DNA from: an uncultured bacterium
Lineage (GTDB): Bacteria > Planctomycetota > Phycisphaerae > Phycisphaerales > SM1A02
Length of the DNA: 64,000 bases
Reading direction: 5' to 3'
Assembly (NCBI GenBank): GCA_903919715.1
Contig: CAIXJC010000062.1
Span: 1-64,000 of the forward strand
Within the stretch, counting starts at the first letter, position 1; the number at the start of each line of letters is the position of its first letter. The translations under genes and the position numbers were made by a program. The notes under the pieces are model-generated. The model had not been told where the DNA came from and made no database searches. It worked only from the letters and a program-made list of their open reading frames with translations. Below are positions 13,404 through 40,864 of this stretch, one piece after another.

Positions 13404-15055
13404 ATGCGATCCAACTTTTTTACCACTTTCGCTTTCTTCGTCACCACATCTTTGATGTTCAGCGCATCGACAGCAGCCCATTGCGTGCCAACTGGTTTCA
13501 TTTCAGGTGCAAGCACTGCGTCCGACGATGTCAATCGAGTTCATTTATTCGTCCGCGAGATCCCACTGACTGTCAACGGAAAGACCGTCATGATGGGAAG
13601 TGTCGTGCAAGCGGATGGCACGCAGGGCTATTCTCCAAATCAATTCAGACGGATTCCATGTTGACGTGACCAATCAACTGAATGTACCGACAAGCATTCA
13701 CTGGCACGGGCTCTCGCTGCCAAACTCGATGGATGGAGTTGCATTCGTCACACAAGAACCAATCGCACTTGGCCAAACTTTTCCCTACGATTTTCCACTG
13801 AAGGAAAGCGGGACATATTGGATGCACTCGCACTATGCGCTCCAAGAGCAATTGCTTGTCTGCGCACCAATGATCATTTGGAATGAAGCCGAGCGGGCCA
13901 AAGCTGACAAACAATTTGCGCTACTTTGACTGATTTCTCATTTACTTCGCCGCTGGCGATTCTAAAAAGTCTGCGAGATGCGCTAGCGATGGACATGAAA
14001 ACCAGTTCGAAGCCAATGCCGGGGATGAAAGAAATGCCTGGTATGCCCGCAGCGCCGCCCATGCCCGTAATGTCCGCCGATCTCCCGCCACAAGTATTCG
14101 CTCAACAATGGGACGAGGCGAATAGTCGATTTGTCCGTGCGATGGTGAATGCTCCAGCTGCGAACATCGATATCAAGTACGACGCCCTACTCGCCAATCG
14201 CCGCACAATCAACGACCCCGAAGTCATGAAAGTAAATCCTGGAGACACCGTGTTGCTCCGCATCATTGCGGCATCATGTGCAAGCGATTTCTTCATTGAC
14301 ACAGGCTCACTTGATGCAGAATTTCTTGCAGTTGACGGCCAGCCCATCCAACCTCTGCGCGGAAATTTTTTCCAGCTGGCGATCGCACAGCGAATCGACC
14401 TACGCGTGACCATCCCAAAAACGACTTCCAGTGACGGAGCGGTCTTCCCGATCACCATGCAAGGAGAAGGCACAACGCTCATGTGCGGAGTTATCTTGGC
14501 GACTGACTTGGCCACTTCCCGCGCAGCAATATCTGCGCTTCCAAAAACAGCCTCGATGACCACCGCAGCACTCGACAACACGCAAGAAATGCGACTGCGG
14601 GCCACGGCGCCGCTTGCTACGAAAAAGATCGATCGTTCGCTGCCCGCCGTCTTGACGGGAACGATGGACGGATATCAATGGTTTATCAATCGTTTATCAA
14701 TGGAATCAAGTATCCAACTCGCGATGTCCTCAGTGTCAAACTTGGCGAGCGCGTCGAGATGGTGTTGACCAACAAGACTCCCATGGGCCACCCGATGCAT
14801 CTGCATGATGGCGCATTTCAGGTCATTGAAATTGATGGCGAGCCACTCTCAGGAGCGCAGCGCGACACGATTGAGGTCCCACCACACTCGATTATCAAGA
14901 TCGCATTTGATGCCGACAACCCAGGCATCTGGCCATTCCACTGCCACATTCCATACCACGCGGATTCTGGAATGTGCACCATGCCGAAGTACGAAGGCGT
15001 CGAGACTCCACATTGGCATCCTGAAGAGGTGCCATCGGAAAAATTCGGACTCTGA
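13404..15055 (+). pseudogene. CopA-like multicopper oxidase broken by three frameshifts
   Basis: Four consecutive reading-frame pieces read as one multicopper oxidase. Piece 1 (13404-~13646) has a signal peptide and the VNGKTVMMGSVVQADGTQGYSP start. Piece 2 (~13648-13925) has HWHGLSLPNSMDG and GTYWMHSHY. Piece 3 (13926-~14691) has a Met-rich segment (PMPGMKEMPGM) and FLAVDGQPI. Piece 4 (~14692-15055) has HPMHLHDG and HCHIPYHADSGM. All copper-ligand motifs survive in pieces. The breaks are a probable extra A at 13647, a lost T in the T-run near 13925-13928, and an 11-bp tandem duplication at 14681-14702. Sequencing error could explain the first two, hardly the third. A full-length protein cannot be made from this reading. 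Confidence 0.88.
14681..14702 (+). repeat. 11-bp tandem duplication that shifts the multicopper oxidase frame
   Basis: GTTTATCAATC at 14681-14691 is followed directly by GTTTATCAATG at 14692-14702 (10 of 11 identical). Removing one copy restores the expected reading DGYQWFINGIKY and joins the two flanking frames. This is therefore the lesion that separates the third and fourth parts of the oxidase. Confidence 0.85.
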
Positions 15056-15183: not shown

Positions 15184-16101
15184 TCACTCCAACACGCGAA
15201 GCGACAGTCCGTGCGCTCCGAGTTGAGTCTTGATCTCGTCGAGGCTTGTCGAACCGAAGTTCTTCATGCCCATCAATTCCGCCTCAGTGCGGCATGCAAG
15301 TTCGCCAAGTGTTCGCACTTCGAGAAGCTGAACAGCCTTCTTCGCGCGGATCGTCAATTCGAGTGAACTGATCGGCTGATCCAACAACTCAGGTGCGACT
15401 TGTGTTCGCAATTGATCGAGATATTCACGGCGATACGATTCTTCGAATCCACCTTCAAGGCCTTGGCCCAAGCGAAGTCCGCGAGAGTTGAGCATCGCCT
15501 TGATTTCGTTGATGCTGGTTTCGCCGAAGTTCTTGAATGCCATCAATTCCGCCTCGGTGACGCGCAAGAGATCTCCAAGCGTGCGAATTTCGACCTTCTT
15601 CAGGCAGTTTCGTGCGCGCGCAGAAAGTTCAAAGTCGGTGATCGGCGTATCGAGAATCGCATTGCGACGAGCAAGTTGTTGCTCAGCATTTGCGTCGTAC
15701 GACATTGTCTTCACTGCACAGACATCCTTGACGTACATGCGCGCGTGGCCGTGATTTGGATAGAGAGTCAGCACGCGGCGAAGGCATCGCTCTGCCCGTC
15801 CGAGTTCCCCCATGTCCTCATAAAGCACCGCAAGATTGATCAGTGCGTTGACTGGTGGCGTCGGGAGATAGCAGATCTCCTCGTATAAATCGATTGCCTC
15901 TTCATCCTCTCCCATGCGATCGAGCAACTTGGCCAATGCGAAGAGCGTCGCCACTGATCGGTCTGATTCAAGCGCCGTGCGATACGAGGCAACCGCCTCA
16001 TCGCGACGCCCCTCGGTTGCGTGACGGGCTGCGAGATCAACGTGTGGCTTGGCCGCCGCTGGATTCGCTGGATTGACATGCTTGATCGTTGCGTTACTCA
16101 T
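15184..16101 (-). CDS. TPR protein with two RNA polymerase alpha C-terminal domains
   Basis: A 305-residue protein without the RpoA N-terminal (assembly) domain. Residues ~20-125 form tetratricopeptide-like helical repeats (DEAVASYRTALE, EEAIDLYEEI, AERCLRRVLTLYP). Residues ~150-215 are an alpha-CTD: ITDFELSARARNCLKK, then NFGETSINEIKAML and SRGLRLGQGL, close to E. coli RpoA around R265, N268 and C269. Residues ~240-303 are a second alpha-CTD (ISSLELTIRAKKAVQLL, NFGSTSLDEIK). The E. coli DNA-contact Arg is kept in both, N268 only in the first. A role in transcription, binding UP-element DNA or regulators while TPRs hold a partner, is inferred. The ATG at 16101 follows a GAGG sequence. Confidence 0.85.
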   Translation of the reverse strand: MSNATIKHVNPANPAAAKPHVDLAARHATEGRRDEAVASYRTALESDRSVATLFALAKLLDRMGEDEEAIDLYEEICYLPTPPVNALINLAVLYEDMGELGRAERCLRRVLTLYPNHGHARMYVKDVCAVKTMSYDANAEQQLARRNAILDTPITDFELSARARNCLKKVEIRTLGDLLRVTEAELMAFKNFGETSINEIKAMLNSRGLRLGQGLEGGFEESYRREYLDQLRTQVAPELLDQPISSLELTIRAKKAVQLLEVRTLGELACRTEAELMGMKNFGSTSLDEIKTQLGAHGLSLRVLE

Positions 16102-16204
16102 TCGTATAAAACCTCGTGTGAAGGACTCCAAACTTTGCACCGCGCAATTTTGGGGGGTCGGGAAGCATACCGCCAACCGCCTAAGTTCTCCAAATCAACC
16201 GAAA

Positions 16205-19412: not shown

Positions 19413-20081
19413 TCACCGCGTAACGAATTCGATCTCGACCGCTCCGGACACCAGATCGATCCGCCGAATTTCGACCTGCCGACCATCGCCAAGCTTAAAA
19501 ATCCGCGGAAGAAAGAGCGTACTTGCTCCATCCCCCTCCAGAAGTCTTGTCGCGAATCGTGCCCCGCCTGGAACTGGTATGAACCCCACCGCCCCCCAGC
19601 CTGGAATGAGCCGGACTCCCTCCGCTTCAACTACTGAGGTGAAAGAACCGCTCCAGATCCGATCGTTGATAGAAATGCTGACGGTGGCGACCTGAGAATC
19701 AAAGTGCACCTGGGCCGTCGCCCCTACGATCGGCCACGCCAATGAAGGATCGTGTTCGCTCCACTGCGGCAATCGACGAGCGATCCATGAATTGATATCG
19801 ATGTCGTGAATGCGAATGGCCCACGGCTCACCCGCAGGGCGAATTCGTGCGAGTGCTGCGGCGAGGTTCTGCTCCAACTCTCGTCCACGTCGATCGCTTT
19901 CAGGATCTTCGGCAAGAGTTTTTGGATCAATCCACGCCAACGGAGCAAGTGTAGAAAGCCACCATCCGATCGCGCAGAGAATTGCGATTGACCCAGCGAA
20001 CCACAGAGCGATTCGACTCGCACGGCGAAGAATCGTCGCCTTTGCTTTCTTGGTCTCCTGCTCGGCCGCCAGCTCAATCAT
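19413..20081 (-). CDS. unknown protein with one N-terminal membrane helix
   Basis: A 222-residue protein not matched to any family I know. A basic, charged N-terminus (residues 1-24) leads into one transmembrane helix (about 25-50, IALWFAGSIAILCAIGWWLS), and the rest (about 170 residues) probably lies outside the membrane. The outer part is strand-rich (VHFDSQVATVSISINDRIWSG). Its start overlaps the ketosynthase stop by 8 bp, so the two are probably co-translated. A link to lipid or polyketide handling at the membrane is inferred from context only. Confidence 0.7.
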   Translation of the reverse strand: MIELAAEQETKKAKATILRRASRIALWFAGSIAILCAIGWWLSTLAPLAWIDPKTLAEDPESDRRGRELEQNLAAALARIRPAGEPWAIRIHDIDINSWIARRLPQWSEHDPSLAWPIVGATAQVHFDSQVATVSISINDRIWSGSFTSVVEAEGVRLIPGWGAVGFIPVPGGARFATRLLEGDGASTLFLPRIFKLGDGRQVEIRRIDLVSGAVEIEFVTR

Positions 20082-21414
20082 CGAATGCCGTCACGCACAC
20101 CGTGTCGTTCTGGCCGCCAAAGCCGAACGAATTCGAAAGGCATGTGCGCACGCGCGCCGCACGCGGCGTGTTCGCAACATAATCCAAATCGCATTCGGGA
20201 TCTGGAGTCGTGTAATTGATTGTCGGTGGGAGCATTCCACGGTGAATCGCCATGACACACGTGATGAATTCGACTGCGCCTGCAGCGGCGATCAAATGCC
20301 CCAGCATGCTCTTGACCGAACTCATCGGAATATCACGAGCAAGATCGCCGAAAACACGCTTCACAGCAAGCGTTTCAATCGAATCATTTTCTTTCGTCCC
20401 TGTGCCATGGGCCGAGATGTAATCCACGAGTGGACGGCCGTCGGCACCACGCGCATGCGGATCAATTCCCGCTTGCGAAAGAGCTTGCAACATCGCCGCC
20501 GCCGCTCCACGACCCGTTGGTTCGATGTCCGTGATGCGATACGAATCCGCACTCGAACCAAATCCGATCAGTTCAGCAAGCGGTTTCACCCCACGCGCAC
20601 GCGCATGTTCGAGCGTTTCCAGAATGACCATGCCTGCGCCTTCGCCCATGACGAAACCTCCGCGCGCGAGATCGAAAGGACGACTCGCCGTGCATGGATC
20701 ACCTTTGCTCGTGCTGAGGGCAGTCAGACGATTAAATCCTGTCACTCCCAGCACATGAATCATGGTATGAGCGCCGCCAGCGATCATCACATCAGCCTCA
20801 CCATGTCGCAGAATGCTCGATGCTTCGCCGATCGCCTGCGTGCTTGCAGCGCATGCAGTCAAACAGTTGTATGCCGGACCGCGCGCGCCGAATTCTCGTG
20901 CAATATGTGCGAGAGGCATATTGGGCTCTTGCTCGATTTCTCGAGCCGCTTTCATAATTTGAAGCCCAATTTCCGCCCACTTCGCTCCGTCGGTCTTCCC
21001 CGTTTGCGCATCCCATGCTTTCAGATTCGCCGCGAGATAATTTGGAGTATCGATGACTCCCTCGCCCGCACCGAGATACATGCCGACGCGTCGCATATTG
21101 CGCGCAGGTTTCACATCAAGAGCCGCCTGACGCCACGCTTGCGCAGCAGCTCCAAGAGCGAACTGCGAATTAATGCCTGCATTCGCATGCGCCGCAGGAT
21201 CTTTGAGCAGCGGATTCACGTCAAAGTTCTTCACTTCCGCAGCGAATGAAGTTGGAAACGTGCGCGCATCAAAGCGAGTAATCGGAGCCATGCCAGACGC
21301 ACCGCGCATCAACGCAGACCACACGGTCTCAAGATCGTGACCGAGGGGAGTGACCCAACCCATTCCACTCACAACAACTCGTTCGCTTGGTGATCGATCG
21401 TTTCGTGCGCTCAT
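20074..21414 (-). CDS. 3-oxoacyl-ACP synthase II-like ketosynthase (catalytic, KS-alpha)
   Basis: A 446-residue condensing enzyme of the FabF type. It has the full Cys-His-His triad plus Lys: C188 in LTACAAST, H336 in SAHGTGTKEND, and K368/H373 in SSVKSMLGH. The C-terminal FGFGGQN stretch is the usual family end. It should catalyse decarboxylative condensation of malonyl-ACP with an acyl chain. The ATG at 21414 overlaps the preceding degenerate paralogue by ATGA; the frame upstream of it is within that gene. Because of this pairing it may work as a KS/chain-length-factor heterodimer and not as the housekeeping FabF. Confidence 0.88.
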   Translation of the reverse strand: MSARNDRSPSERVVVSGMGWVTPLGHDLETVWSALMRGASGMAPITRFDARTFPTSFAAEVKNFDVNPLLKDPAAHANAGINSQFALGAAAQAWRQAALDVKPARNMRRVGMYLGAGEGVIDTPNYLAANLKAWDAQTGKTDGAKWAEIGLQIMKAAREIEQEPNMPLAHIAREFGARGPAYNCLTACAASTQAIGEASSILRHGEADVMIAGGAHTMIHVLGVTGFNRLTALSTSKGDPCTASRPFDLARGGFVMGEGAGMVILETLEHARARGVKPLAELIGFGSSADSYRITDIEPTGRGAAAAMLQALSQAGIDPHARGADGRPLVDYISAHGTGTKENDSIETLAVKRVFGDLARDIPMSSVKSMLGHLIAAAGAVEFITCVMAIHRGMLPPTINYTTPDPECDLDYVANTPRAARVRTCLSNSFGFGGQNDTVCVTAFDD

Positions 21415-22751
21415 GCTGGTCTCCGAAGAATGATCGCAGCACTCTGACCACCCATACCCGTCGTGGTGACAAGGACGTTTCGAATGTTCGCACTGCTTGC
21501 TGGCCGTGCATCTGCGTCGACACCCAATGCGGCAGATCCAGAAGTCGAAAGTCGTGCAGGAAGTTTTTGTTCGTGGATGCACTGCGCTGCAACCGATGCC
21601 GCCAACGCGCTCGATCCCGCACCGCAAATTCCGATCTGTGGCGCAAGTGTGACCAAAGGGATCTTTGGCAAACGATCACCAAAGACCATTCGCAGTGCCT
21701 TCGCTTCCGCTGCGTCGACCGATGGAATTCCGCTGCCCAGTGGAATAATCGCATCGATTTCGCCTGCACTTATTTTCGCATCTTCCATCGCCCCTTCAAT
21801 CGCTGCCGCGATGTCAGGCGCAGACTCGCACAGATCCACGCCGACCGTATCGATGCATGCGCATTGGCTCGCAGCAAATCCAGCGAGTTCTGCGAAGGCT
21901 TTGACGCCACGACTCTGCGCGCTATCGAATCCTTCCGTGATCAAGATCGCCCCACCTTCACCAAGAACAGTTCCAGCTGCACGCGGATCGAATGGACGAA
22001 CAGCTGCGACGCCATCGGCGCCAACGGGAACTGCGGCCAAGCGATTCGCAAAAGTCTGGCGAAGAAGTCCCATGTAATTCACTTTGCTCTCGCCGCCTCC
22101 CGAGAGGCAGGCATCTGCATCACCGCGTCGCATGACACGCATTGATTCGCCAATCGAAAGTGCGCCAGACGCTTCTGCGCACGTCAACGTATTGGAAGGT
22201 CCCTGGCAATCATGGATGATTGTCACATGGCACGCCAGCATGTTTGGCAAATATTTGAGCAACCAAAGCGGCGTGAGATTATTCATCCCCGTTCGTCCCC
22301 ATTCGCCTGGATCGAATCCGCCGTCTGCATCTCGGCATGTCAACATCGCACTTGCGAGTTCGTCTGAATCAGCGGGAATCAGGCCCGCTCCGATATGACA
22401 TCCAACTCGCTCGGGCGCAATCGTCGGAGGCACACCTTCGGCAGTTCCGCGTGTCGTCAATCCAGCCGAGGTGACCGCTGCGGCAGCGGCGGCAACGGCA
22501 ATCTCAATATCTCTCGCCATGACCTTCGTCGCCTTGCGATAATTTTTAGGGACAACACTGCGAATATCAAGTTGCTCTGGCAGAATCGTGGCAGCGACCG
22601 TCGTCATAAAACCAGATGGATCAAAGGCTGTGATCGGGCGAATCGCAGATGCGCCGCTGCAGAGTCCCGCCCAAAGCGGCTCCATACCAATGCCGAATCC
22701 CGACATGGGACCGACTCCAGTGATAACGATTCGTCGCTTTGATTTAGACAT
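21411..22751 (-). CDS. degenerate ketosynthase paralogue (chain-length-factor-like, KS-beta)
   Basis: A 446-residue thiolase-fold protein homologous to its neighbour but without a working active site. Aligning on GPS, the nucleophile Cys position is Glu193 (TCAEASG; a Cys sits two residues before). The first His position is Leu338 (PLGSGIPSVDAAE), the Lys position is Ala370 and the second His is Ile375 (PQIGICGAG). The overall length and the fold motifs (GDADACLSGGGES, VLGEGGAILITEG, TTGMGGQSAA) are intact, so it is not simply decaying. Type II polyketide chain-length factors show the same kind of loss (Gln in place of Cys). It precedes and overlaps the catalytic KS. Confidence 0.85.
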   Translation of the reverse strand: MSKSKRRIVITGVGPMSGFGIGMEPLWAGLCSGASAIRPITAFDPSGFMTTVAATILPEQLDIRSVVPKNYRKATKVMARDIEIAVAAAAAAVTSAGLTTRGTAEGVPPTIAPERVGCHIGAGLIPADSDELASAMLTCRDADGGFDPGEWGRTGMNNLTPLWLLKYLPNMLACHVTIIHDCQGPSNTLTCAEASGALSIGESMRVMRRGDADACLSGGGESKVNYMGLLRQTFANRLAAVPVGADGVAAVRPFDPRAAGTVLGEGGAILITEGFDSAQSRGVKAFAELAGFAASQCACIDTVGVDLCESAPDIAAAIEGAMEDAKISAGEIDAIIPLGSGIPSVDAAEAKALRMVFGDRLPKIPLVTLAPQIGICGAGSSALAASVAAQCIHEQKLPARLSTSGSAALGVDADARPASSANIRNVLVTTTGMGGQSAAIILRRPA

Positions 22752-22796: not shown

Positions 22797-24149
22797 TCAC
22801 ATGCGACGAGCGACCAAGAGCGCCATCTCGAGCGCCTGCTCGTAATTCAGCCGAGGATCGAGCGTTGTTTGATATGCGCGGCCCAAGTCGGAGTTCATCA
22901 ACCCTCGCGCGCCGCCGGTGCACTCCGTCACATTTTCCCCAGTCAATTCGAAGTGAACTCCGCCCAGAATCGAGCCTTTCATTGCATGCACCTCGAACGC
23001 TTGTTCCAATTCCGCAAGAATGTGAGCAAACTTACGCGTCTTCACTGGCACCGAGAGGCCCGACTCCGCCTTCACCATGACCGTATCCGTATTGCCATGC
23101 ATGGGATCGCAAATCCACAGCGCTGGAATCTTTGCGGCAGCGATTGCGTCGATGAATTTTGGAAGCGAGTCAGCGATATTGCGTGCGCCGAGGCGATGAA
23201 TCAGCGCGATGCGTCCCTCTTCACGTCGTGGATTCAATCGTTCACAGAGTTCGACCAAATCGCGAGGCGTGCGATCGGCGCTGACTTTGATGCCGATGGG
23301 ATTCTCGATGCCACTGAGATATTCGACGTGCGCCCCATCAAGTCGCCCCGTGCGCGCACCGAGCCATGGAAAGTGTGTCGAAAGATTCCACCAGCCTTCG
23401 CGACGAGGGACAACGCGCGTCTGCGCCTCTTCGAGTTCCAACAAGAGACACTCATGGCTCGTGAAGAAATCAACTCGCTGCATTTGATGAACGCGCACTC
23501 CAGCAAGGGTCTCCATGAATCGAAGCCCTTCGCCAATTGCATCGACCATGCGCTTGTACTCCGCTGCGAGCGGCGAATGCACGACCCAATCCAAATTCCA
23601 CTGTTCTGGATGATGCAAATCGGCGAATCCGCCGTCGACAAGTGCCCGAATGAAGTTGAGCGTCAACGCAGATCGTTCATATCCACGGAGCAGCAGTTGC
23701 GGATTTGGGGTGCGCGCCGCTGCGGTGAATTCAGGACGATTGACGTTGTCACCGCGAAAAGATGGGAGCGAAATGCCATCACGAACCTCTTCTTCGGTCG
23801 ACCTCGGCTTGGCGTACTGCCCAGCAAATCGGCCGATGCGAACCACTCGCTTTCGCGAAGCGTGCGTCAACACCAAACTCATTTGTAACAAGATCTTGAG
23901 TTGATTCGTAATCGCCGACGACCGACAGTCTGCGAAACTTTCCGCGCAATCACCGCCATGCAGAACGAATCTCTCGCCCCGTGCGGCTTCGGCCAGTTGG
24001 GATTTGAGCGCCGCGACTTCACCGCTCGTCACAAGCGGCGGCAGATCCTTGATCTCGTCGATCACACGCTGCGCCTCATGCATGTCGGGCCACGCCGCCT
24101 GCTGGCTTGCAGATCGAGAACGCCAAGAATCGGGCGACCATGTACTCAT
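22797..24149 (-). CDS. class II 3-deoxy-7-phosphoheptulonate (DAHP) synthase
   Basis: A 450-residue plant-type (class II) DAHP synthase, which condenses PEP and erythrose 4-phosphate at the entry to aromatic amino-acid synthesis. It opens with the class hallmark WSPDSWRSRSASQQ and carries LHGGDCAESF, RIGRFAGQYAKPRS, HFPWLGARTG, IKVSADRTP, RLGARNI and WICDPMHGNT. The longer open frame to 24212 runs through the tRNA-Leu gene, so the ATG at 24149 is the start. It sits 45 bp upstream of the ketosynthase pair on the same strand and might head that operon, or be the organism's general DAHP synthase. Confidence 0.93.
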   Translation of the reverse strand: MSTWSPDSWRSRSASQQAAWPDMHEAQRVIDEIKDLPPLVTSGEVAALKSQLAEAARGERFVLHGGDCAESFADCRSSAITNQLKILLQMSLVLTHASRKRVVRIGRFAGQYAKPRSTEEEVRDGISLPSFRGDNVNRPEFTAAARTPNPQLLLRGYERSALTLNFIRALVDGGFADLHHPEQWNLDWVVHSPLAAEYKRMVDAIGEGLRFMETLAGVRVHQMQRVDFFTSHECLLLELEEAQTRVVPRREGWWNLSTHFPWLGARTGRLDGAHVEYLSGIENPIGIKVSADRTPRDLVELCERLNPRREEGRIALIHRLGARNIADSLPKFIDAIAAAKIPALWICDPMHGNTDTVMVKAESGLSVPVKTRKFAHILAELEQAFEVHAMKGSILGGVHFELTGENVTECTGGARGLMNSDLGRAYQTTLDPRLNYEQALEMALLVARRM

Positions 24150-24173
24150 GCCGTCAAGAGTATCGACGAACAA

Positions 24174-24255
<82 letters not shown>

Positions 24256-37536: not shown

Positions 37537-38628
37537 ATGAGATTGACCGCCCAAGAGATTGCGACAAAGATCGGCGGCGCACTCGATGGACCGGGTGCGC
37601 TCGTTGTCCGCGGCGTCGGCGATCTACGCGGTGCGAAGGAAGCCGACGCGACCTTTATTTCTGATGCGAACTATGCGCGACTCTGGATCGACTGCCCAGC
37701 GAAAGTCGCTCTCGTATCACGAGGCGTTGAAGTGCCAGGGCACGACTCCACGAAGCGCGCACTGATTCATGTCGATCAAGCCGAAGTCGCGATGATTTCG
37801 TTGCTCGAACACTTCGCTCCTGCTCCTGAAGTCCCGCCCAAAGGAATTCATTCCACTGCCGTGGTCGAAACTGCAGGTATTGAGCCAGACCAACTCTCCG
37901 TCGGTCCACTCGCTTGGATTGGAAAGAATTGCATCTTGGGCCGAAATGTTGTGATTCACGCAGGCGTTCGCATCTATCCCGGCGTCACGATCGGTGACGA
38001 CGTGATCATTCATGCCAACGCCGTCATTCGCGAGCGATGCGTAATTGGACACCGAGTCATCGTGCATGCTGGCGCAGTGATCGGAACAGAAGGATTCGGC
38101 TATCGCCCATGCCCGAGTGGTAAAGGCCTTCTTCGGATCCCCCATCTTGGAAATGTTGTGCTGGAAGATGATGTTGAGGTCGGAAGTTGCACTTGCATTG
38201 ATCGAGGCACATTCGGATCAACTCGATTAGGCGCTGGAACCAAGATCGATAATCATTGCCAAATCGGACACAACGTGCAGATTGGAAAGTCAACCGTGAT
38301 GGCGGGCCTGAGCGGCATTGCAGGATCAAGCACGATCGGAGATTGGGTTCGAATCGGCGCTGGATCTGGAATCGCTGATCACCGTACTGTCGGTTCGGGA
38401 GCGCAACTTGCCGCACGAACAGCGTTGATGAATGATGTTCCCGCTGGTGAAATCTGGGGTGGAATGCCTGCTCGGGAGATCAAAGTTGAAATGCGGCATA
38501 TTCTTGCCCTCCAAAAATTGTCTCCGCTGACTCGCGACATCATGCGACTGGTGGATGACGCGAAGAAGAACAAAGAAGCGGCGAAAGAATCAGTCAAAGC
38601 ATCCGTTCAAGAATCAGCGAAACCATGA
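37537..38628 (+). CDS. lpxD: UDP-3-O-acylglucosamine N-acyltransferase LpxD
   Basis: A 363-residue LpxD, third enzyme of lipid A synthesis, which adds a 3-hydroxyacyl chain to the 2-amino group. The N-terminal uridine-binding domain (ISDANYARLWIDCPAKVALV) is followed by left-handed beta-helix hexapeptide repeats. KIDNHCQIGHNVQIGKSTVMAGLSGIAGSSTIGD contains the catalytic His and typical repeats. GGMPAREIKVEMRHILALQKL leads into the C-terminal helix, then a Lys/Ala-rich tail of ~30 residues. The stop overlaps lpxC-fabZ (ATGA). Confidence 0.94.
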   Translation: MRLTAQEIATKIGGALDGPGALVVRGVGDLRGAKEADATFISDANYARLWIDCPAKVALVSRGVEVPGHDSTKRALIHVDQAEVAMISLLEHFAPAPEVPPKGIHSTAVVETAGIEPDQLSVGPLAWIGKNCILGRNVVIHAGVRIYPGVTIGDDVIIHANAVIRERCVIGHRVIVHAGAVIGTEGFGYRPCPSGKGLLRIPHLGNVVLEDDVEVGSCTCIDRGTFGSTRLGAGTKIDNHCQIGHNVQIGKSTVMAGLSGIAGSSTIGDWVRIGAGSGIADHRTVGSGAQLAARTALMNDVPAGEIWGGMPAREIKVEMRHILALQKLSPLTRDIMRLVDDAKKNKEAAKESVKASVQESAKP

Positions 38629-40028
38629 CTTTCGGACCACCCAATATTGGCAATTTCACCGGAGGAATTCGCGGTCTCACCCAATCAAAGATCGCAGAGT
38701 CCATGACTCCAGAGAGTCACAGGCAGCACACGATTTCAACACCAACGATTGTCCGAGGGAAAGGACTCTTGCTTGGAGTCGATGCGGAAATCGAATTTTG
38801 TCCTGCACCTGCTGGAACAGGAATCGTCTTTGAACGAATCGATCTTGACCCTGCTGTCATGATTCCAGCACTCATCACCAATGCAGTGTCGCGCCCGAGA
38901 CGGACGACGCTTCGTGTTGGTGATGCGACGATCGATACCGTCGAACATTGCTTGAGCGCGATCGTCGGTCTTGGCATCGACAACCTGCACATTCGCCTGC
39001 GCGGACCAGAAGTTCCAGCGGGCGACGGATCCGCCCTTCCGTTCTTCGAACCACTGAAGGCAGCGGGACGCGTGAGTCAAGATGCGCCAATACATATCCA
39101 CCGAATCACAGAGCCGATTGTGATTGAGGAAGAAGATGCGCTGATCGCAGCGCTTCCGTCCGACGAGCCTGGTTTTCGCGTCACCTACGAACTGGATTAT
39201 TCCAGTGTTTCATCACAAATAGGTCGGCAAAATCGAAATTTCGATTTCGCCCGCGATAACTACGAAACAGAAATTGCGCCTTCGCGAACATTCAGTTTGC
39301 GCTCCGAAGCGGAAGCATTATGGGCAGCGGGAATGTGCCGACACCTCACACCACGAGATGCCCTAGTCATCGGTGACGATGGACCAATCGAAAACGCTTT
39401 CCGCTTCGCTGACGAATGCGTCCGCCATAAAGTGCTTGACGTCATCGGCGACCTTGCATTGGCTGGCGTGAGACTGCAAGGGAAAGTCATTGCGCAACGT
39501 TCTGGCCATGATCTCAATCGACGACTCGCTCGACGACTGTATGAACAAGTCCGTGCGACGGCTCGCACGGAACTCGCTGGATCTGGCCGCGTGCTTGATG
39601 CGCGTGCGATTGCACGCATCATGCCCCATCGATACCCGATGCTCTTGATCGACCGCGTCGTGGAGATTGACGGCAACCGCCGAGCGGTCGGCATTAAGAA
39701 TGTCACGATCAATGAACCCTTCTTTCCAGGCCATTATCCTGGTACTCCCATCATGCCTGGGGTCCTCATTGTCGAGGCGATGGCTCAATTAGGCGGGTTA
39801 TTGCTCTCCCAAACTCTTGAACACACAGGAAAAGTTGCTGTATTACTCTCGCTTGATAAGGTAAAGTTGCGAAAGGCAGTTACGCCAGGAGATCAGTTGA
39901 TTCTCGAGGCGGAAACCTTGCGTGCGAGCGCTCGAAGTGCCGCAGTTCAGTGCCGAGCATGGGTCCAAGGCAAACTTGCCGCAGAGGCCCAGATTCGATT
40001 CATGATGGTTGATGCGGAGTTCGAATGA
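38625..40028 (+). CDS. fused LpxC-FabZ (UDP-3-O-acyl-GlcNAc deacetylase / 3-hydroxyacyl-ACP dehydratase)
   Basis: A 467-residue two-domain enzyme. The LpxC part (about 35-315) removes acetate from UDP-3-O-acyl-GlcNAc. Zinc and catalytic residues are present in TVEHCLSAI, VRHKVLDVIGDLAL (H...D) and SGHDLNRRL. The FabZ part (about 325-467) dehydrates 3-hydroxyacyl-ACP: MPHRYPMLLIDRV and FFPGHYPGTPIMPGVLIVEAMAQ hold the catalytic His and Glu. This fusion is known from Bacteroidota and some planctomycetes. The N-terminus has about 33 extra residues before LpxC; internal ATGs at 38703 and nearby are possible starts. It overlaps lpxD and lpxA by 4 bp each. Confidence 0.94.
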   Translation: MTFGPPNIGNFTGGIRGLTQSKIAESMTPESHRQHTISTPTIVRGKGLLLGVDAEIEFCPAPAGTGIVFERIDLDPAVMIPALITNAVSRPRRTTLRVGDATIDTVEHCLSAIVGLGIDNLHIRLRGPEVPAGDGSALPFFEPLKAAGRVSQDAPIHIHRITEPIVIEEEDALIAALPSDEPGFRVTYELDYSSVSSQIGRQNRNFDFARDNYETEIAPSRTFSLRSEAEALWAAGMCRHLTPRDALVIGDDGPIENAFRFADECVRHKVLDVIGDLALAGVRLQGKVIAQRSGHDLNRRLARRLYEQVRATARTELAGSGRVLDARAIARIMPHRYPMLLIDRVVEIDGNRRAVGIKNVTINEPFFPGHYPGTPIMPGVLIVEAMAQLGGLLLSQTLEHTGKVAVLLSLDKVKLRKAVTPGDQLILEAETLRASARSAAVQCRAWVQGKLAAEAQIRFMMVDAEFE

Positions 40029-40864
40029 TGTCAAAGATCCACCCAACTGCAATCATTGATTCTTCCGCCGAGATCGCCAAGTCGGCGACCATCGGCCCCT
40101 ATTGCACGATCGGACCGCGTGTTCACATCGGTGAAGACTGCGTGCTTCGAAGCCACTGTCACGTGACAGCCTTAACACGCATGGGGCGTGGAAACGAAGT
40201 TCATCCATTTGCATTAGTGGGTGGTGATCCACAAGACCTCAAGTTTCACGGCGAACCAACTTGGTTAGAGATGGGCGATTTCAACATGATTCGCGAACAT
40301 GCGACGATTCATCGTGGCACCGGAAACGGTGGCGGAATCACTCGTATTGGTTCGCACAATCTTGTGATGGGCAATGTCCACATCGCGCACGACTGCATCA
40401 TTGGCAATCACTGCATCTTTGCAAACAACGCCATGCTCGCAGGACATGTCCATGTGGATGATTACGCCAACATTGGTGGTGGTGCGGGACTGCATCACTT
40501 TGTAAAAGTTGGATACTGCGGATTTGTCGGTGGCATGGCGCGCGTCTCGAAGGACGTCCCCCCATTCATGCTCGCAGAAGGAAGCCCGGCTGCTATTCGT
40601 GGGTACAACCACGTTGCAATGAGTCGAATCGGGATGGATGAAATGGAACTCGAAGCGGTCAAAGAGGCGTACAAGAAGATTTATCGCATCCGCGGCGGCG
40701 CTGGAGTAACAAAAATTGCCTCGCTTCTCCGCGATTATCCAACTTCCAAGGCCCTTCGCCGAATTGCCGAGAGCATCCGCGCAGTCAATGAGGGGCTCAA
40801 TGGTCGTTCCCTCGAAGTGAAACGGACCGACGACAAGCGTGCCGTCCGAGTCGTCCGTGGGTAA
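40025..40864 (+). CDS. lpxA: acyl-ACP--UDP-N-acetylglucosamine O-acyltransferase LpxA
   Basis: A 279-residue LpxA, the first committed enzyme of lipid A synthesis. It shows the hexapeptide-repeat start KIHPTAIIDSSAEIAKSATIGPYCTIG, GGDPQDLKFHGEPT, IREHATIHRGT, and GNVHIAHDCIIGNHCIFAN with the catalytic His in HIAHD. The helical C-terminus (YKKIYRIRGGAGVTK) is normal. The start is a double ATG (40025/40028) overlapping the lpxC-fabZ stop. The run lpxD-lpxC/fabZ-lpxA supports a lipid-A-containing outer membrane. Confidence 0.95.
   Translation: MMSKIHPTAIIDSSAEIAKSATIGPYCTIGPRVHIGEDCVLRSHCHVTALTRMGRGNEVHPFALVGGDPQDLKFHGEPTWLEMGDFNMIREHATIHRGTGNGGGITRIGSHNLVMGNVHIAHDCIIGNHCIFANNAMLAGHVHVDDYANIGGGAGLHHFVKVGYCGFVGGMARVSKDVPPFMLAEGSPAAIRGYNHVAMSRIGMDEMELEAVKEAYKKIYRIRGGAGVTKIASLLRDYPTSKALRRIAESIRAVNEGLNGRSLEVKRTDDKRAVRVVRG

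Follow-up and report, generated by a model that had tools for sequence, protein, structure and literature searches.

A ketosynthase-fold protein without catalytic residues is conserved beside an active ketosynthase in Phycisphaerales

Two overlapping ketosynthase genes

The stretch of DNA analysed here, referred to as the window, comprises 64,000 nucleotides of contig CAIXJC010000062.1 from an uncultured planctomycete of the order Phycisphaerales (SM1A02), and the subject of this study is a pair of genes on its minus strand which encode ketosynthase (KS)-fold proteins of 446 amino acids each. The proteins encoded by the upstream gene (21411–22751) and the downstream gene (20074–21414) were designated as KSdeg and KSact, respectively; in comparisons among lineages they are termed KS1 and KS2. 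Both genes overlap by the sequence ATGA (21411–21414, minus strand), such that the stop codon of KSdeg coincides with the start codon of KSact. Matches to the Pfam domains PF00109 and PF02801 were above cut-off for both proteins, with 85 and 40.3 bits for KSdeg and 153 and 114.5 bits for KSact. The catalytic set Cys188, His336, Lys368 and His373 is complete in KSact, and KSdeg carries Glu193, Leu338, Ala370 and Ile375 at these sites. A preliminary description of this locus had named two thiolase-fold genes of 446 codons sharing ATGA, together with these eight residues; the coordinates and all eight residues proved to be correct. KSact also passed the cut-off of an NCBIfam subfamily of beta-ketoacyl-acyl carrier protein (ACP) synthase II (423 versus a cut-off of 387), and KSdeg passed no such cut-off among the models listed. 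One more full KS is encoded in the same genome, namely a FabF directly following an ACP gene on contig C18 (labels of contigs, genomes, loci and families are our own).

KSdeg is conserved throughout the order

Orthologues of KSdeg were searched in 61 genomes, comprising the window's own genome and others of the same genus, family and order. They were detected in 58 genomes, own genome included (E ≤ 2.4e-70); the three genomes without a match (G026, G028 and G032) are 88, 74 and 72% complete. A further family member, G393, which is 97% complete, may lack KSdeg, as its best match to the KSdeg profile was 1.2e-71. Phycisphaerales-type KSdeg sequences with 53–59% identity also occur in records titled Bacteroidia, Candidatus Kuenenia stuttgartiensis and Vicinamibacteraceae (L112, L136 and L151), which are probably mislabelled or mixed metagenome bins.

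The loss of all four catalytic residues could be taken to indicate that KSdeg is a decaying duplicate. Across the order, however, its reading frames are near full length, with an internal TAA in one listed match (G060). The ratio of non-synonymous to synonymous substitution rates (dN/dS) was calculated for the window against 18 loci of the same genus and one of the same family; although several dS values above 1.5 make the estimates rough, KSdeg showed 0.054–0.067 in the five nearest comparisons (dS about 0.8) and 0.054–0.084 in all computable comparisons (13 of 19), and KSact 0.025–0.071 (16 of 19). The structural model of KSdeg revealed a FabF fold at high confidence (pLDDT 90.4, pTM 0.92); the nearest solved folds are FabF proteins, and the ishigamide KS/chain-length factor (CLF) first appears at rank 37. 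Order-wide orthologues, low dN/dS and the confident fold model rule out decay or a misread sequence, and the probability left to a decaying duplicate is negligible. The preliminary description had regarded KSdeg as a protein under constraint, which is borne out by these data, and frameshifted relatives, which it had named as evidence to the contrary, were not found.

The Cys site of KSdeg is occupied by Glu in 76, Asp in three and Gln in one of the 80 named loci of the order, and by Glu in 33 and Gln in one of 34 orthologues from fetched stretches. At the other sites of the 80 loci, position 338 is His in ten, position 370 is Lys in seven and position 375 is His in none; the Cys site is thus almost always occupied by an acid, whereas the remaining catalytic positions are variable. 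Altogether 58 positions are invariant among 32 KSdeg orthologues, and these are concentrated in residues 159–195 (23 of 37 positions, versus 35 of 409 elsewhere). This segment aligns with FabF 129–165, which we take to be the dimer-interface strand and residues reaching the acyl pocket of the partner subunit. Its counterpart in KSact is unremarkable (11 of 37 invariant versus 102 of 409 elsewhere); Cys188 and Glu118 are invariant in the alignment of 34 KSact sequences. The FabF gate residues Phe202, Phe229 and Phe400 are retained in all 17 KSact rows; among the 17 KSdeg rows, Phe202 and Phe229 are retained in none and Phe400 in two.

In 76 of the 80 loci, both genes share one strand with KSdeg first, and the aligned parts lie at most 60 bases apart in 49 of these 76. 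For the remaining four loci, KSact was not found in the stretch, which in one case (L164) spans 10 kb on either side. This layout, in which translation couples an active KS to a KS-fold partner that is under constraint but not catalytic, resembles KS/CLF systems, as had been stated in the preliminary description, and KSdeg and KSact likely form one heterodimeric, KS/CLF-like condensing enzyme.

Alternatively, KSdeg might act alone as a homodimer, either as an ACP- or acyl-binding scaffold or as a KSQ-like malonyl-ACP decarboxylase in which the acid replaces Cys. The presence of an acid or Gln at the Cys site of all 80 loci, with Gln in the two Streptomyces CLFs compared, would agree with such a role, as would the retention of His and Lys by several KS1 proteins from both sister and other families and the large distance between the KSdeg and KSact genes in some genomes. 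However, the His residues for decarboxylation (positions 338 and 375) are mostly lost in the window's order, and the ATGA coupling in the window as well as the adjacency in most loci point to a fixed partner, which makes a homodimer rather unlikely.

Operons of sister lineages contain a dedicated carrier protein and two dehydratases

The direct neighbours of the pair in the window encode a class II DAHP synthase and a 222-aa protein, in agreement with the preliminary description, which had noted the lack of an adjacent ACP, ketoreductase or cyclase. This statement requires an amendment: a dedicated ACP, designated as ACP2, is encoded together with a FabZ on another contig of the same genome and beside the pair in sister lineages. 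ACP2 comprises 132 aa with the motif ESIDFLDIVF, and both genes lie on a 4.8-kb contig (C9:168–1035). ACP2 matches (E ≤ 2.9e-35) were obtained in 55 of the 61 genomes. Open reading frame calls on 20 ACP2 stretches of the window's order gave the arrangement FabZ-ACP2-FabZ' in 14 cases; the other six showed a single one of these FabZ genes.

In sister lineages, these genes are joined to the KS pair in an operon FabZ-ACP2-FabZ'-KS1-KS2 (L199, L200, L201, L204 and L205), with KS1 corresponding to KSdeg and KS2 to KSact. L203 and L217 contain a FabG-type reductase gene within this operon, L202 is arranged in the same way, its KS2 being truncated at the end of the contig, and L208 is organised as FabZ-FabG-ACP2-FabZ'-KS2 and has no KS1. 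The reductase of L203 was assigned by Pfam and NCBIfam and the others by clustering with it. The upstream FabZ has the catalytic His in 24 of 24 proteins and Glu (21) or Gln (3) at the acid site. The downstream FabZ' has His in 26 and Glu in all of 28 proteins; the two without His are those of L204 and L205, i.e. of lineages with an intact KS1. The deep-branching module copy of L203 (9084–13125) is followed by genes for a GH3-type protein, a methyltransferase and a DUF362 protein with 4Fe-4S motifs, perhaps tailoring genes. An aminotransferase encoded beside two sister modules was dismissed as a candidate, since its best NCBIfam models are ordinary aminotransferases and all listed scores are below the cut-offs.

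Co-occurrence was determined in one set of 392 genomes from the phylum, with E < 1e-77 for strong KS1 and E < 1e-30 for strong ACP2 matches, both cut-offs having been chosen after viewing the hit lists. KS1 was present in 89 and ACP2 in 88 genomes: 87 carry both, two KS1 only, one ACP2 only and 302 neither. Below the cut-offs, 21 genomes have KS1-profile matches between 1e-70 and 1e-77 and four have ACP2 matches between 1e-19 and 1e-21. As the genomes are related, the Fisher p value of this co-occurrence is no fair probability. The adjacency in sister lineages and the co-occurrence suggest that ACP2, although encoded on a different contig here, serves the KS pair.

An extra ACP, a FabZ and two FabF-type proteins are also encoded by the rhizobial acpXL/fabZXL/fabF2XL/fabF1XL cluster. 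With this similar list of parts, the module might supply lipid A with a very-long-chain (omega-1)-hydroxy acyl group, and lipid A genes are indeed present in the window, where an LpxC-FabZ fusion (38625–40025, plus strand) is followed by an LpxA-like acyltransferase gene (40025–40861, plus strand). The scores for the NCBIfam models which we take to represent the rhizobial XL proteins were nevertheless below cut-off, with 44.2 versus 83 for ACP2 (NF005079), 64.3 versus 320 for KSdeg (NF005084) and 355.7 versus 525 for KSact (NF004970). Furthermore, no acyltransferase or alcohol dehydrogenase partner was found among the module neighbours scanned, which are a selection, and we consider this function unlikely.

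KS1 shows graded loss of the active site

The state of KS1 can be written as the residues at its Cys, His, Lys and His positions. This code reads CHKH in L204 and L205, DHKH in L203, EHKH in L200, EHKN in L199, ETKH in L201, DHKN in L202 and NNKH in L217. Eleven KS1-like genes from other families of the phylum (L206, L207, L209–L216 and L218) have Asp or Glu at the first position in ten cases and Ser in one, with the next His and the Lys each kept in ten of eleven. In KS1 of the window, nothing of this set remains but the acid. KS2 retains CHKH in the sister rows compared. The site of FabF Ile108, the pocket gate, is Glu in KS2 of 17 of 17 rows of the order and of L199–L201, L203, L208 and L217, and Lys in KS2 of L204 and L205, in which KS1 is intact; in KS1 of the order, this site is occupied by Leu (16 rows) or Ile (one row). 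An equivalence of KS2 Glu118 with Asp113 of Iga11, a residue named in the accessible part of PMC8358021, was discarded because it derives solely from a numbering offset. L204 and L205 (family f21), in which the catalytic residues of KS1 and KS2 are all kept and the FabZ' His is lost, possibly represent the state before the loss.

In a first phylogenetic tree, KS1 proteins of the window, the sister lineages and others formed one group (support 100/98) and KS2 proteins another (98/92). KSdeg was not placed among the FabF rows; a grouping with active FabF proteins owing to a misread sequence, which the preliminary description had considered as a refutation, was thus not observed. A second tree, to which four Streptomyces KS-alpha/CLF pairs were added and from which long aryl polyene rows were omitted, again recovered KS1 (100/96) and KS2 (100/98), with two Streptomyces KSs beside KS2. 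CLF lies outside KS1 in both best trees, where KS1 groups with two KS1 proteins keeping CHKH. In the approximately unbiased (AU) test, a joint KS1-CLF group was not rejected with the first (p = 0.271 and 0.105) or the second tree (p = 0.178), the values 0.271 and 0.178 referring to a clade of degenerate KS1 and CLF. KS1 and KS2 as a single clade were not rejected either (p = 0.148 and 0.235). A loss of catalysis in KS1 independent of streptomycete or actinobacterial CLF is favoured by the best trees, but it is not established because the AU test does not reject the joint KS1-CLF group.

Relation to known systems

Type II polyketide synthases likewise possess a coupled KS-fold pair, KS-alpha and KS-beta, with one active protein and one without Cys, and the ACP of the operon and the FabG-type reductase of some sister lineages add to this likeness. 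The pair could accordingly be of actinobacterial origin, as a classical KS-alpha/CLF belonging to an acquired type II polyketide pathway: its layout matches that of the Streptomyces pairs fetched, and a clade of degenerate KS1 and CLF is compatible with the AU test. The best trees, on the other hand, split KS1 from CLF and join it to the CHKH-keeping KS1 proteins, the Cys site is mostly Glu rather than Gln, and no cyclase or aromatase was detected among the neighbours scanned with Pfam, which are a selection. Together with the presence of KSdeg across the whole order, this renders such an origin very improbable. The two FabZ genes of the module are a further difference from type II polyketide synthases.

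Aryl polyene systems (ApeO-ApeC with ApeH-ApeP and ApeQ) resemble the module in combining an active KS and a catalytically silent partner with dehydratases, a ketoreductase and ACP, as described in the accessible part of PMC8358021. According to the same part, ApeC is a single thiolase-fold domain, whereas KSdeg is of full length, matches both Pfam halves and was modelled as a whole fold. Unlike in aryl polyene clusters, no gene for an aryl starter or an MMPL exporter was seen among the neighbours scanned; an oligopeptide-type ABC ATPase is encoded near one FabZ-ACP2 unit (L251).

The loss of active-site residues in planctomycete FabF paralogues has been known since 2009: Rattray et al. reported two paralogues of R. 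baltica, NP_865682 and NP_866153, with Asp and Glu at Cys163 and partial loss of the other residues, as well as divergent Kuenenia paralogues (PMC2649909, section 9 and Table 2 for R. baltica). By this published description, the R. baltica proteins resemble KSdeg in the loss of Cys. In the accessible part of that work, the paralogues were treated singly with respect to ladderane biosynthesis, and neither a KS1-KS2 pair nor a FabZ-ACP-FabZ' module was mentioned. A catalogue of KS-CLF systems from 2023 counts Planctomycetes among 14 phyla in its accessible part (PMC10132072). Apart from these two publications, no description of the FabZ-ACP2-FabZ'-KS1-KS2 module was found in the open-access literature searched. 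A KS with a silent partner is ordinary in outline; what sets this pair apart is its order-wide spread, the unusual acidic replacement, the split operon with co-occurring parts and the visible series of loss.

Neighbouring genes

The gene for the 222-aa protein (19413–20081, minus strand) overlaps the end of the KSact gene by 8 bases. Of 38 KSact stretches, 24 contain a member of this family, which in every case lies 3' of KSact and on its strand. Members are also present in 40 of the 80 named loci, where 34 start within 300 bases of the KSact end and six farther away on the same side; some contigs break off early. No member was detected beside KSact of G022 (L037); this genome has one about 6 kb from the FabZ-ACP2 unit (L256:2113–2886, E 8e-41). 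The structural model of the window protein (pLDDT 93.1) shows one long helix at the N-terminus and a body that is mostly beta. A Foldseek search with this model gave nothing significant (best E 0.043), with LBP at rank 3 and CETP at rank 16, both of which are TULIP proteins. Weak DUF2140 matches were obtained for three of 28 family members (best E 2.8e-4), and the window protein had no DUF2140 match at E ≤ 1. DUF2140 has been assigned a TULIP lipid-transfer fold and is described as restricted to monoderm bacteria in the accessible part of PMC6791001, which counts against a simple membership of the 222-aa family in DUF2140. As a lead only, the protein is possibly a membrane-anchored, TULIP-like (DUF2140) lipid carrier.

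The class II DAHP synthase gene (22797–24212, minus strand; PF01474, 596.1 bits) lies 45 bases upstream of the pair. It was found near the pair in 18 loci including the window, all from the window's family (4.4 kb away in L043), and because of this restriction it is not counted as part of the system. Elsewhere in the window, a multicopper oxidase is split over three open reading frames (13600–15055, plus strand) with Cu-oxidase_3, Cu-oxidase and Cu-oxidase_2 in consecutive overlapping frames, owing either to frameshifts or to assembly errors, and a gene at 15184–16176 on the minus strand encodes a TPR protein in which the C-terminal domain of the RNA polymerase alpha subunit (PF03118) occurs in two stretches.

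Proposed function

In the heterodimeric condensing enzyme proposed here, KSact would carry out the chemistry, with Cys188 carrying the chain and His336 and His373 decarboxylating the malonyl extender. KSdeg would provide the non-catalytic half of the dimer, shape the acyl pocket and help in docking the carrier. The growing chain would ride on the long ACP2 and would be reduced by a FabG, which is encoded beside ACP2 in some sister lineages and presumably borrowed in the window's genome; after reduction, the two FabZ-type enzymes encoded beside ACP2 would dehydrate it. The membrane-anchored protein encoded next to KSact might then pass on the acyl chain. The product is probably an envelope lipid or a special acyl chain destined for the envelope.

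Several observations weigh against such a system. KSact alone scores like an ordinary FabF-type synthase with NCBIfam. KSdeg and KSact are separated by 7 kb in G027 and lie at distant sites in G037, G042 and G046. ACP2 is unlinked in the window's order, being present in the stretch around the pair in none of the 80 loci, and the KS1-like genes of G346 (family f32; L206 and L207) lie far from its KS2 operon (L208). G042 and G377 carry KS1 and ACP2 was not found in them, a repeat search of G042 being again empty, and G393 has ACP2 without a strong KS1 match. Finally, the DUF2140 link of the third gene is weak. The genes between KSdeg and KSact in G027 include mnmE, yidC, a MauE-like gene and unknowns; they look unrelated and were rejected as additional pathway genes.

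One can speculate, with a good deal of doubt, that an old planctomycete module of FabZ, ACP2, FabZ', KS1 and KS2, joined by the membrane-anchored lipid carrier in Phycisphaerales, makes an undescribed and possibly essential envelope lipid. KS1 might have become CLF-like separately from the actinobacterial CLF, from the intact enzyme via replacement of Cys by an acid with His and Lys kept to the loss of all residues, and the acid at the dead nucleophile site together with the fixed gate Glu of KS2 might now serve the polarity of the pocket.

The KS1 proteins, intact in L204 and L205, with Cys replaced and His and Lys kept in L203 and L200, and with full loss in the window, look like a natural series leading from a ketosynthase to a non-catalytic subunit, and the origin of a chain-length factor therefore becomes testable. 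To our knowledge, the lipids of the window's order have been little studied. With the pair present in 58 of the 61 genomes sampled from this order, identification of the product would connect a gene marker with a component of the membrane.

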